Source: Anaerolineae bacterium
GTDB taxonomy: Bacteria > Chloroflexota > Anaerolineae > 4572-78 > NAK82
Length of the DNA stretch: 23,988 nt
Direction: 5' to 3'
NCBI GenBank assembly: GCA_030598425.1
Contig: JAUVPY010000001.1
Coordinates: forward strand, 1-23,988
Part shown: positions 10,168 to 23,045 of the stretch, in pieces
Position numbering within the stretch: the stretch's first letter is position 1
How the letters are laid out: each line of letters opens with the position of its first letter
The notes under the pieces: generated by a model
What the model saw: the letters and a program-made list of their open reading frames with translations, nothing else
Database searches by the model: none
What the model was told of the DNA's origin: nothing
Made by a program: the position numbers and the translations under genes

Positions 10168-13100
10168 CTACCCCTCGCGACGCTTGATGATGCGATATGC
10201 TCTGAGCGGCACGCCACCCGCCTTGCGGGAGGTGTAGGCCGGGTCGATAAGCTCGGCGATGACGGCATCGCCCAACATCTCGTGGGTGCGGCCATCCACG
10301 TAGATTTCGCTCTCCTGGCGGCCCTTGATGGCCAGCTTGGAGAGCTTGTTCGCCAGATTGACCGCCGAGCCGACCCTCGCTGTCTCTGAGCCGACTGTTC
10401 CCTTGGCCACCGAGCCAGTGCTGAGTCCAATGCCTACGCCGACGTGCTCAAACTCGGTGCTCTCTTTGGACCACTTGGCGCGCAGTTCCAGAAAGGTCTC
10501 GCGCATCTGGAGGGCGGCCAATAGAGCTCGGTCACCGGAAGTCGTATCGCTTTCACCGTGGCGCTCGTAGAAAGAGCCGAAAACCCCCATTACGCTGTCA
10601 CCCAAGCTGCGGTCCATTGCCCCGCCAGCCTGTACGACAACGCTAGACATACGCATCAGATATTCGTCAAGAAACTCCACCATGAGTTCCGGTCCAATGG
10701 CGTTAGTGAGGAAAGTGGAACCGTGAATGTCGCCCATGACGACTGTGACCTCTTTCTGTTGTACTAGCTCTTCAATGTAGGCCGGGTCGTAATAACGGTC
10801 CAGGTCTGACCGGCGACCGCGTTGACGATCACGCAGCAGTCGCATGCTTGACGTCTCTGCCAGTCGATGGGCTACCGAGGGATAACGAGCCATTACGTCC
10901 TTAAAATCTTCGCGGCTGAGAGCCAGCAGGCGGGTCGGCGAAACGACACGAATAGTCGCCGTACGTGGAACCGCCCGCAGCAGGGCAATCTCTCCGAAGA
11001 AGTCAGTGGGCCCCAATCGGTTCAGGACGCTCGGCATACCCTTCACGTCAGGGGCCAATACTTCTACTTCACCTGTTTCGACGATGTAGAAGGTGTCGCC
11101 CATCTCTCCCATGTGAAACACAATTTGCCCTGGTTCGAACTCGACGACCTGAAGCCGGTTGGCGAGCAGTACGTTTTGTTCCAATGTCAGTTTGCTGAGG
11201 AGCGGTATGCGGTCGAGCACTCTGATCGCACCCGAAGCCAGGGCTTTCACCAGGATATCAAGCTGGGTACGAGCTTCTATGTAGTCGGGCTTCAATTCGA
11301 CAGCGGTCTGAAAAGCACTACGTGCTGCCGGGTAATCGCGGAGCAGCTTTAGGAGAGTGCCCAAGTTATAATAGTGATGCGGATTAGAAGGCTCAAGCTG
11401 AGTAGTTGCTCGAAAGACAGTCAGCGCCTCAACGTATTCGCTCTGGTCGTAGTACGTGATACCCAGTTGATTGTAGGCATCCACGAAGTCAGGCCGTACG
11501 CGAATGGCTTCCTCAAGATGCGTGATAGCGCGATCGTATTGATCCACAAGCCGGTAGAGAGAGCCAAGCTCGTATTGCACATCGGCTGAACCGGGCTGCA
11601 ATTCGGCGGCGCGATGCAGGTAGATCAGGGCTTCCGGATAACGGCTGAGTTGCCGGCAAGCTAACCCCAAGCTGAAGAGCATACCGAGCCTCTGTCTTGC
11701 CTCAATCGCGCTTTGGGCAGATATGGCTGCCTCCAAGCTTTCAGCCGCGTACGTGATATCACCTCCGGCATTAGCCAGACATTCCGCCGCGAGCCAGATG
11801 CGGCTGTAATCGATGCCCTGCCCTAGAATCCTGAAGAAGAGAGTTTCCCTGTGCCGAGAAATGCCATAAAGCAGCACTATTGTGCCCAACCATTGCCGGC
11901 GACTCTCGGCGGTGAGGAGCAGTGGTTCTAGATCAACGGTCTGGTCGCGCAAAGCGAGTGCTGCGAAAAACTCTTGCAGGGAATGATGAGCGAACTCCAC
12001 CCACTCTCGATCGCTAGAGTAGCGAACCAAACCGCTAGACATTGTTTCTTCCATCACGTCCTGAGGCGCAACAGTGCGCGCGGCTTCGCGTTCCTCAGGA
12101 CTGGCTGCCTCGCGATAGAGGTAGATCTCCTGCGTCACAATCGCTGTCCAACGATTGCGCGGGAAGGCCCATATCTCGTTTTCCTGCATCATAAGGCCCA
12201 AGGAGGCCAGTGCAGCGCGTCGAATCTCCAAGGGTACTTGATCCTTGGATCGGTCGGAAATCTCCGTCCATTCGGTGTCAACGCGCTCCAATAGGTTATT
12301 GGTGAACCGTTTGAAGAGCACCCCCCGGTTCTTTGGTAGTACGGGCTCCGTGCCCTTTGCAATCTGCGCGAACATATATAGTGCCAGCGGAGTCTGAGCC
12401 AGGTCCTCGAGCTGAGGATCACTATATATCTCTCGGGCCACACGACGCCCCCGGTCGGCTCCAAGGTATTTTGTCAAGAAGTTGTCGACATCGTCCCCAG
12501 TTAGCCGCTGAAGCATAGCGGTGCGAAAGCGCGCAATGGGTGCGTAGTGCTGAGCCCGGCATGCCATCACAAATCGGTGATGCGAGTATTCCTGAATGAA
12601 CCGATTGAGATCGCGTCTTATCCCCGGCTGGCTACTCATTTCGTTCAGGCCGTCCATCAACAAGACGAGGCTGTGAGCCGGGTGGGCGTTTGATTCCTGT
12701 CCCTTCAATAACCCTGCCAAATCTGCTCTAGTCTCGATTTCAAGAATTCCGTAGCTGTGCAACGATTCGAGAATCAGCTCTTCTACTCGACGCTCAGAGG
12801 TAAGCATATTCAACTTGATGAAGAACGGGACAACGGTCGTCCCGCCTGGCTCCTCAAGAGACTTCAAGCCCTCATTGGCCAGGTCAAGCATCATACGCCG
12901 TAGTACAGTCGTCTTGCCGGCGCCGGCCTCACCCAGCACGACGGCGTACTGATCATCGGCGACAAGCTGGCGCACATCAAGCGGCGTTTGTCGGATGAGA
13001 CTGTGCCCCTCTAGGGCGAAGCGACGCAGCGGTGACACGAGTTCCTGTGGATCGCGTATCCTGGTCTCCAACCGGCGTCGACTTATTTCCATCAACATCT

Positions 13101-13653
13101 CGGCCACGGAGGGTGCTACCTGCGAAATAGTTCCCAGCAGGTCGCGGTCGAGCACCAGGAAGCGAGAAGGTTGTGAGGTGCGGACCGTCGCTGTGCGCGG
13201 TACGCTCTGCAACAAGGCAACTTCCCCGAAAAAGTCGCCAGCCCCCAAGGTTGAGACCATTACATCGTTGCCCAACGCATCAGAGACCAGAACTTCGACT
13301 TGACCGGTGACGATAACGTAACACGTGTCGCCGGGCTCGCCGCGTTCAAAGACCGTTTCCCCCGACTTGCGAGATTCTGTCTGGACGACAGCCTGCTGGA
13401 GTTGGGTCATCTCATCTTTGGTCAGGGTATGCCTTGGTACTACCGGTTTCATTGTATCTGCAGCGCGGACCGCTCTGAGTGGAAGATAAAGATCCTGCCA
13501 GACGGCGAAGTCAGGGTCTACTAACACGTTCTGAAGATAGCGCAGGAGGGGTGACCTTCGGGCTCCAAATGCGTCCATTTCTACATCCAGCTCTCTTCCC
13601 AAAGAGTCTCTCACGGAGGAATCCGGGCCGGGGACGAAGTCAGGGTCAGCCAT
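10168..13653 (-). CDS. CNB-NACHT-TPR-CNB-class III cyclase fusion protein
   Basis: A single 1161-residue protein carries five recognisable modules. Residues about 85-195 are a cyclic-nucleotide-binding (CNB) domain with phosphate-binding cassette FFGEVALLQSVPRTA (Glu144, Arg153). Residues about 235-400 are a NACHT NTPase with Walker A GEAGAGKTT (241-249) and Walker B LLMDGLNE (331-338). A helical region ends in FAHHSLQEFFAALAL (554-568), a usual NACHT-associated motif. Four TPRs occupy about 657-792. A second CNB domain (about 815-930) has Glu888 and Arg897. A class III cyclase domain (about 965-1155) keeps both metal Asp residues, Asp975 and Asp1019. No membrane segment is seen, so it is probably cytoplasmic. 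The adenine-selecting Lys and Thr/Asp positions read Arg1015 and Ala1092, and the transition-state Arg reads Lys1103, so product and activity are uncertain. NACHT and cyclase proteins act in signalling and in phage defence in other bacteria; which applies here is not known. Confidence 0.9.
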   Translation of the reverse strand: MADPDFVPGPDSSVRDSLGRELDVEMDAFGARRSPLLRYLQNVLVDPDFAVWQDLYLPLRAVRAADTMKPVVPRHTLTKDEMTQLQQAVVQTESRKSGETVFERGEPGDTCYVIVTGQVEVLVSDALGNDVMVSTLGAGDFFGEVALLQSVPRTATVRTSQPSRFLVLDRDLLGTISQVAPSVAEMLMEISRRRLETRIRDPQELVSPLRRFALEGHSLIRQTPLDVRQLVADDQYAVVLGEAGAGKTTVLRRMMLDLANEGLKSLEEPGGTTVVPFFIKLNMLTSERRVEELILESLHSYGILEIETRADLAGLLKGQESNAHPAHSLVLLMDGLNEMSSQPGIRRDLNRFIQEYSHHRFVMACRAQHYAPIARFRTAMLQRLTGDDVDNFLTKYLGADRGRRVAREIYSDPQLEDLAQTPLALYMFAQIAKGTEPVLPKNRGVLFKRFTNNLLERVDTEWTEISDRSKDQVPLEIRRAALASLGLMMQENEIWAFPRNRWTAIVTQEIYLYREAASPEEREAARTVAPQDVMEETMSSGLVRYSSDREWVEFAHHSLQEFFAALALRDQTVDLEPLLLTAESRRQWLGTIVLLYGISRHRETLFFRILGQGIDYSRIWLAAECLANAGGDITYAAESLEAAISAQSAIEARQRLGMLFSLGLACRQLSRYPEALIYLHRAAELQPGSADVQYELGSLYRLVDQYDRAITHLEEAIRVRPDFVDAYNQLGITYYDQSEYVEALTVFRATTQLEPSNPHHYYNLGTLLKLLRDYPAARSAFQTAVELKPDYIEARTQLDILVKALASGAIRVLDRIPLLSKLTLEQNVLLANRLQVVEFEPGQIVFHMGEMGDTFYIVETGEVEVLAPDVKGMPSVLNRLGPTDFFGEIALLRAVPRTATIRVVSPTRLLALSREDFKDVMARYPSVAHRLAETSSMRLLRDRQRGRRSDLDRYYDPAYIEELVQQKEVTVVMGDIHGSTFLTNAIGPELMVEFLDEYLMRMSSVVVQAGGAMDRSLGDSVMGVFGSFYERHGESDTTSGDRALLAALQMRETFLELRAKWSKESTEFEHVGVGIGLSTGSVAKGTVGSETARVGSAVNLANKLSKLAIKGRQESEIYVDGRTHEMLGDAVIAELIDPAYTSRKAGGVPLRAYRIIKRREG

Positions 13654-13772: not shown

Positions 13773-13801
13773 ATTATAGCATCAAAAGTAGGGGGTGTCA
13801 A
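13773..13801 (-). promoter_or_regulatory. Promoter of the NACHT/cyclase gene
   Basis: On the minus strand TTGACA (13801 down to 13796), a 17-base spacer and TATAAT (13778 down to 13773) are a perfect sigma-70 consensus. The predicted start is near 13766, leaving a leader of about 113 bases. A weak AGGA lies 5 bases before the ATG, so strong transcription may be paired with modest translation. Confidence 0.8.
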
Positions 13802-19599: not shown

Positions 19600-19628
19600 T
19601 TGACATATAATCCATTTCGGGGTATAAT
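19600..19628 (+). promoter_or_regulatory. Perfect consensus promoter for the LPVTG surface protein
   Basis: TTGACA (19600-19605), a 17-base spacer and TATAAT (19623-19628) match the sigma-70 consensus at all twelve positions. The predicted start near 19635 leaves a leader of about 57 bases before ATG 19692. Confidence 0.85.
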
Positions 19629-21816: not shown

Positions 21817-22284
21817 TCAAGCAGGAACTAGGCCGATCGCCTCGAGTCGGCCCTTAACTTCCTCCAATGCCTTGGGCCCAACGCCGTCTACCGCTAAGAG
21901 TTCTCGGTCGCCGGCTTCCAGCTTTTTAACCACATCGCCTATGCTGGCCAGGCCACCTTCAACCAGGGCTTTATTTACGCGTTCGCTCAAATCCAAGGCT
22001 TCGACCTGCTGCTTGAGCAGTATCTCATGTTCCTTGAGCGAGGCCTGATCAAGCCGCGTCTTCTCCTCGGCCACGTGCTTTTCAAAGCGCTCCAGGCGCT
22101 TCTGATAGCGGTCTACCTGTCCTGCCGTGTCCACGATGCGCTGCTCGCCGGTGAAAAAGGGATGGCATGCCGAGCAAACGTCGGTGCGAATGACCTCCAC
22201 CGTTGACCCAGTTGTCCAGGTGTTGCCACAACTACATATGACCGTTGCATTCGGATAATACTTCGGGTGAATACCTTCCTTCAT
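21817..22284 (-). CDS. rpmE: 50S ribosomal protein L31 fused to an RpoA-CTD-like helix-hairpin-helix domain
   Basis: Residues 1-66 of this 155-residue protein are a zinc-type L31 (MKEGIHPKYY, Cys17-x-Cys19, Cys37-x2-Cys40, then HPFFTGEQRIVDTAGQVDRY). Typical L31 proteins end there at about 65-80 residues. The remainder is a charged helix (about 60-95), then a domain at about 95-152 that reads LDLSERVNKALVEGGLASIG and GVGPKALEEVKGRLEAIGL. This closely resembles the C-terminal domain of RNA polymerase alpha, which binds DNA and activators. ATG 22284 is chosen by the L31 family start; a TTG at 22296 would add four residues. It lies between rpmA and tdk in the rplU operon. The L31 part is firm; the function of the tail is unknown and could be in ribosome binding or in linking transcription to translation. 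Confidence 0.9.
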   Translation of the reverse strand: MKEGIHPKYYPNATVICSCGNTWTTGSTVEVIRTDVCSACHPFFTGEQRIVDTAGQVDRYQKRLERFEKHVAEEKTRLDQASLKEHEILLKQQVEALDLSERVNKALVEGGLASIGDVVKKLEAGDRELLAVDGVGPKALEEVKGRLEAIGLVPA

Positions 22285-22287
22285 TAC

Positions 22288-22330
22288 TTTACCCAAAACC
22301 TTTCGATAATTTGCCCAAAACCTTTTCGAT
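22288..22330 (-). repeat. Tandem direct repeat in the rpmA-rpmE gap
   Basis: Two near-identical copies, 22288-22307 and 22310-22330, share CCCAAAACCTTT(T)CGAT. On the minus strand each contains AAAGG followed by TTTTGGG, so the unit before rpmE appears duplicated, including a ribosome-site-like sequence. Confidence 0.7.
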
Positions 22331-23016: not shown

Positions 23017-23045
23017 ATTATATCCACATAATCATAGACTGTCAA
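23017..23045 (-). promoter_or_regulatory. Perfect consensus promoter of the rplU operon
   Basis: On the minus strand TTGACA (23045 down to 23040), a 17-base spacer and TATAAT (23022 down to 23017) match the sigma-70 consensus completely. The -35 box lies inside the last codons of the upstream DUF2344 gene. The start is predicted near 23010. Confidence 0.85.

Follow-up and report, generated by a model that had tools for sequence, protein, structure and literature searches.

We found that a window of DNA from an Anaerolineae bacterium (the whole stretch that was analysed, 23,988 nucleotides) holds an uninterrupted frame for a 1161-residue protein, in which a CNB domain (CNB1), a NACHT NTPase, a TPR array, a further CNB domain (CNB2) and a class III cyclase fold follow one another on a single chain (Table 1). 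The NACHT part scores above the Pfam gathering score and displays Walker A and B motifs and the NLR-type fold, and the C-terminal part has the cyclase fold. On other contigs there are four relatives that also measure exactly 1161 residues, at 98, 92, 89 and 86% identity, and the gene is therefore not an artefact. The sequence-only reading had proposed this five-domain order together with the individual CNB, NACHT and cyclase residues, all of which are in place in the intact gene; the frameshift or assembly join by which, as it had allowed, the gene might be undone is countered by the open frame and by the equal-length relatives on separate contigs. A large NLR-like protein with two CNB domains and a cyclase-type domain on one chain is real and is conserved in one group of Chloroflexota.

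Table 1. Features of the NACHT-cyclase gene and its surroundings (window positions, except where loci are named)
Feature	Position	Strand	Remark
Whole gene	10168..13653	-	1161 aa, five-part domain order
Pre-NACHT motif W52-x3-Y56-x-P58	13480..13500	-	Invariant in the 75 rows of alignment A2
CNB1, residues ~74-195 (E144, R153)	13069..13434	-	Inserted between pre-NACHT motif and P-loop
NACHT NTPase core, Pfam 237-398	12460..12945	-	Walker A 241-249, Walker B D334, C365-R366
H556..QEFF motif, residues 556-563, winged-helix part	11965..11988	-	H556 in 75/75 rows of A2
TPR array, residues ~655-800	11254..11691	-	With CNB2, highest conservation in the protein
CNB2, residues ~812-935	10849..11220	-	E888, R897
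Class III cyclase-fold domain, residues ~965-1158	10180..10761	-	D975, D1019 and N1099 kept; R1015; K1103
Promoter-like site, perfect TTGACA-N17-TATAAT	13773..13801	-	Also upstream of the locus in L009 and L010
Stretch from promoter-like site to start codon	13654..13772	-	In relatives, e.g., L009, holds gene A and the NTD-coding part
ATPase/AAA+-like module loci	L052-L059, L064, L067, L068, L070, L072, L074-L077, L081

CNB domains and conservation of the chain

The phosphate-binding cassettes of both CNB domains are strongly conserved in alignment A2, which has 75 rows, three CNB1-less relatives included: E144 of CNB1 is present in 73/74 and R153 in 72/74 of the rows with a letter there, and CNB2 displays E888 in 75/75 and R897 in 74/75 rows. 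We predict that both domains bind a cNMP; CNB-type matches also occur on seven other contigs of the window's own genome. The pre-NACHT motif and the P-loop residues, which flank CNB1 on either side, are invariant in all 75 rows, though the spacing between them is 125 residues in the window as against 14, 34 and 38 in three distant CNB1-less relatives, and CNB1 is thus an insertion, placed in the linker that leads into the NTPase core. Such a position, directly before the P-loop, could suit it to gating the NACHT switch.

Mean pairwise identity across 72 rows is 0.72 for the TPRs, 0.71 for CNB2, 0.67 for the cyclase, 0.54 for NACHT and 0.53 for CNB1. The sensors of immune STAND proteins are described as highly variable (excerpt of PMC10907252), whereas the TPRs are among the most conserved parts here. 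In a codon comparison with four relatives, dN/dS did not exceed 0.21 for any domain whose dS is finite; the ratios are rough, since dS is near or beyond saturation in many cells. They point to purifying selection, on the part that encodes the cyclase too.

A non-canonical cyclase domain

The C-terminal domain displays the fold and the two metal-binding aspartates of class III nucleotidyl cyclases, with D975 and D1019 kept in 74/75 and N1099 in 70/75 rows of A2. The position of the transition-state Arg is occupied by Lys (K1103) in 70/75 rows of A2 and by Lys in 31/31 rows of alignment A1. The first base-recognition position is Lys in 47/75 and Arg in 25/75 rows, the window protein having the latter (R1015), and the base-recognition segment with the second recognition residue is absent, leaving four residues fewer than in CyaB and others. 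The full complement of a canonical purine cyclase (base-recognition Lys and Thr/Asp, transition-state Asn and Arg) is hence not found. Judged by these residues, the cyclase is non-canonical; the sequence-only reading had taken it to be a working enzyme, which the two retained metal aspartates support and which the missing segment and the Lys in place of Arg speak against. Among eight distant relatives, the domain is absent in three and has lost a metal Asp in one, and the wider family therefore cannot have cyclisation as its function.

Of the solved cyclases, CyaB is the nearest in sequence (E 3e-16), while 7r65, which we take to be PaPycC, is matched far more weakly (E 5e-4). In EaPycC, a cytidylate cyclase, a substrate-recognition Arg, R142, precedes the second metal Asp, D146, by four positions (excerpt of PMC11224242). 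The likeness of R1015 to this Arg is an analogy that we use solely as a lead on the putative substrate.

Distribution and descent

At E<=1e-60 in whole genomes, 21 of the 25 genomes of the order have the gene, in one copy each: it is found in all 18 members outside the window's family and in three of the seven inside it, with no match at 1e-60 in the other four, whose assemblies are 71-95% complete. In a sample of the class, 29 of 396 genomes have it, 21 of which belong to the order, the occurrence outside the order being patchy (8/371 genomes). A phylum sample gave 3/400: the window's own genome, another genome from its class, and a third, with 46% identity, that lies outside the class. Scanning an 84,980-species collection by pattern, which detects close relatives only, recovered 15 loci from records titled Chloroflexi, Anaerolineae, Anaerolineales or Anaerolineaceae only; many of these overlap the genome-sample matches as the same genes, and they were counted once. 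In a tree of 26 sequences, which leaves out three partial members of the order, the families f1, f2, f3, f11 and f35 each form one clade and f51 is a single row, the pattern expected under vertical descent. A long relative from another class of the same phylum (G405:C334:30674-34033; 46% identity over residues 30-1161) is a possible case of lateral transfer.

An upstream ATPase, an N-terminal domain and the short form

Most relatives are longer than the window protein at the N-terminus, where 100 of the 120 listed have a degenerate AAA+ domain (NTD), and a P-loop ATPase gene (gene A) lies just upstream in 19/19 genomes that hold its orthologue. Both gene A and the NTD are absent at the window locus, and gene A has no match in the window's genome, the assembly of which is 63% complete. 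The relatives are, as their predicted domains and gene order have it, mostly two-gene systems of an upstream ATPase and a protein with an N-terminal AAA+-like domain, of which the window has a reduced form. This short form corresponds to a supported clade with seven members, the window's sequence among them, and a separate, second loss of the NTD is found in P0022. Gene A was not found in 10 of the 21 genomes with the NACHT-cyclase gene (one of these assemblies being 55% complete), and L010, which is devoid of it, still has 38 residues left over from its C-terminal end (45% identity, E 1e-5). The divergence ratio of the NTD is 0.79-0.97 where gene A is present and, among genomes without it, 0.84-1.00 in a six-genome clade and 1.30 and 1.32 in two others. 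As gene A is not found in 10/21 genomes and the NTD is not relaxed in the six-genome clade, the link between the partners is not a simple one.

A promoter-like site stands ahead of the window gene (Table 1), which in L009 precedes gene A; 100 shuffles of the window contain no perfect TTGACA-N17-TATAAT site. The window has two more such perfect sites, at 19600-19628 (+) and 23017-23045 (-).

Two further observations concern the N-terminal regions. A 1526-residue relative (L018:6894-11471) has some 200 extra residues ahead of the NTD, which are hydrophobic by eye and possibly serve as a membrane anchor. Widespread in the class is a module of two genes: the first encodes a P-loop ATPase, and the second, which at times overlaps it, a protein whose N-terminal domain is AAA+-like and degenerate and which usually has TPRs. 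Pfam gave no family for this N-terminal domain.

Comparison with known systems

The antiphage STANDs of bacteria that are NACHT- or NLR-like (bNACHT, Avs, EruA) and the animal NLRs (NLRP3, NLRC4, NOD2) share with the window protein a central NACHT with Walker A/B and the winged-helix motif, the NLR-like fold and a repeat array C-terminal to the NTPase. Unlike them, the window protein has no N-terminal killing effector; one CNB is inserted ahead of the P-loop, the other follows the repeats together with the cyclase, and the repeats rank among its most conserved parts. Its match to the NCBIfam EruA model is weak (42.5 bits against a cut-off of 1000). With Pycsar (PycC with PycTIR or PycTM), it has in common that a class III cyclase and a CNB belong to one signalling unit, and also that an Arg precedes the second metal Asp by four positions, as is seen in a cytidylate PycC (excerpt of PMC11224242). 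Pycsar comprises two genes, a cyclase and a separate CNB effector with a TIR or transmembrane killing domain, whereas the window has one chain with NACHT and TPRs added. The PADLOC models for PycC and PycTIR match its CNB and cyclase parts as partial, single-domain hits, and there is no TIR match. The earlier remark that no separate killing domain is visible stands, neither a TIR nor a transmembrane effector domain having been found in the window protein.

Multi-domain class III cyclases of a cyclase-STAND-TPR-LuxR type are present in Actinobacteria and likewise join a class III cyclase and a STAND NTPase on one chain; their domain order is different, and the window protein has two CNBs and is devoid of the DNA-binding LuxR end. 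Predicted conflict systems from multicellular bacteria, among them VMAP, iSTAND and further two- or three-gene systems, combine STAND or inactive STAND NTPases with cNMP cyclases, cNMP-binding domains and partner genes (excerpts of PMC7159879 and PMC8195603). The exact chain of the window and the pair of gene A and NTD do not appear in the excerpts of these two papers. The sequence-only reading knew of no described system with this domain order, and searches of open-licence literature likewise yielded neither the order, nor the CNB insertion, nor the gene A/NTD pair, which is weak evidence of absence. The component parts are known, as are cyclase-STAND combinations in predicted conflict systems; what seems new is how the parts are strung together, with a CNB inserted and gene A paired with the NTD.

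To survey the surroundings, 94 ORFs from 152 candidates at 18 loci were scanned, excluding gene A and small or outer ORFs. No PADLOC family was matched by more than one of these 94 ORFs at 1e-10, a count that has no background set for comparison; this may be a further difference from the antiphage STANDs. Single neighbour ORFs are matched by 42 PADLOC families (again with no background rate), and among the 25 of these that are listed are models for PD-T4-6, mad3, mad6, PDC-M37B, C3a189 and DolB. MoxR and vWA, adjacent genes for which mark the vWA-MoxR ternary conflict systems, are not among the 25 listed of the 109 Pfam families matched by the 94 ORFs. For the four window neighbours scanned with PADLOC, the response regulator alone gave matches, which were weak CARF ones.

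A predicted signalling switch

We favour, with a probability of about one half, the reading that the gene encodes a chromosomal, vertically inherited NACHT (STAND) signalling switch, in which NACHT assembly pairs the cyclase domains under the control of the CNBs and TPRs. The TPRs would bind a conserved endogenous partner or ligand, and cNMP on CNB1 (before the P-loop) and CNB2 (before the cyclase) would bias the ATP-dependent open or closed state of NACHT, such that the two inputs together set this state and ATP-bound NACHTs assemble. Class III cyclase domains work as head-to-tail dimers (excerpt of PMC6027212); as they need pairing for an active site, an assembly that brings the C-terminal domains together would turn nucleotide cyclisation on, or tune it through CNB feedback. 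The product might act on the particle's own CNBs and also on further CNB proteins in the cell. We posit that the ancestor was a two-gene system, whose upstream P-loop ATPase worked with the N-terminal degenerate AAA+ domain, and that the window lineage, devoid of both, may now work as one gene under the former promoter.

An endogenous role is indicated by the family-congruent tree, the single copy per genome, the conservation of the TPRs and CNB2, and the neighbourhoods with no repeated defence family. The same observations weigh against anti-phage defence, in which a bacterial NLR would sense phage by its TPRs and its cyclase, much as in Pycsar, would make a cNMP alarm for further effectors with CNB domains. 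Defence does employ NACHT proteins as well as cyclase-CNB pairs, cNMP cyclases occur in the predicted conflict systems cited above, and the PycC/PycTIR and weak EruA matches and the single neighbours with defence models point the same way; however, the matches of the window protein are partial and single-domain, and we consider defence unlikely. The sequence-only reading had judged signalling as likely as defence, and the evidence now tips the balance towards signalling, albeit not decisively.

Another reading makes the cyclase domain a pseudo-enzyme whose sole part is to bind a nucleotide, or to pair, as a third allosteric input. It would explain the missing base-recognition segment, the Lys in place of the transition-state Arg and the loss or decay of the domain in four of eight distant relatives, and inactive cNMP cyclase domains are indeed reported in conflict systems (excerpt of PMC7159879). 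Yet the metal aspartates, N1099 and K1103 are retained in nearly all rows under purifying selection, and we give this reading a real chance, though one well short of even. That the window copy is a decaying remnant on its way out, its partner and NTD lost, is very improbable: the absence of gene A and the NTD and of any match in four of the seven family genomes would fit, but the frame is open, the motif residues and the promoter-like site are kept, dN/dS is low, and the short form is a supported clade with an independent parallel in P0022.

The signalling switch might go as far as a self-contained NLR-like particle, with a cNMP sensor in the NACHT hinge, a cyclase output of unusual base specificity and a product that feeds back on the same particle, an idea that we hold to be doubtful. 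If true, such a relative of the NLRs would both produce its own second messenger and read it, all on one chain. The sequence-only reading, too, had thought of a signalling particle, self-amplifying or self-limiting, which may exist. The gene itself, conserved in a bacterial order, joins two regulatory principles that are usually separate, assembly of the NLR type and gating by cyclic nucleotides, and its conservation pattern suggests that NLR-like machines also serve in routine signalling. The natural lack of the ATPase partner and NTD offers ready short and long forms for comparison at the bench.

Other fusions at the loci

Two large neighbours of relatives (L023:11357-15931 and L022:12120-14474) fuse a transcriptional-activator (BTAD) domain to a solute-binding protein domain, and one of the two adds a protein kinase and an AAA domain. 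In the window itself, the gene at 22296 to 21817 (21817-22296, -) encodes a fusion of ribosomal protein L31 with a domain that resembles the C-terminal one of RNA polymerase alpha.
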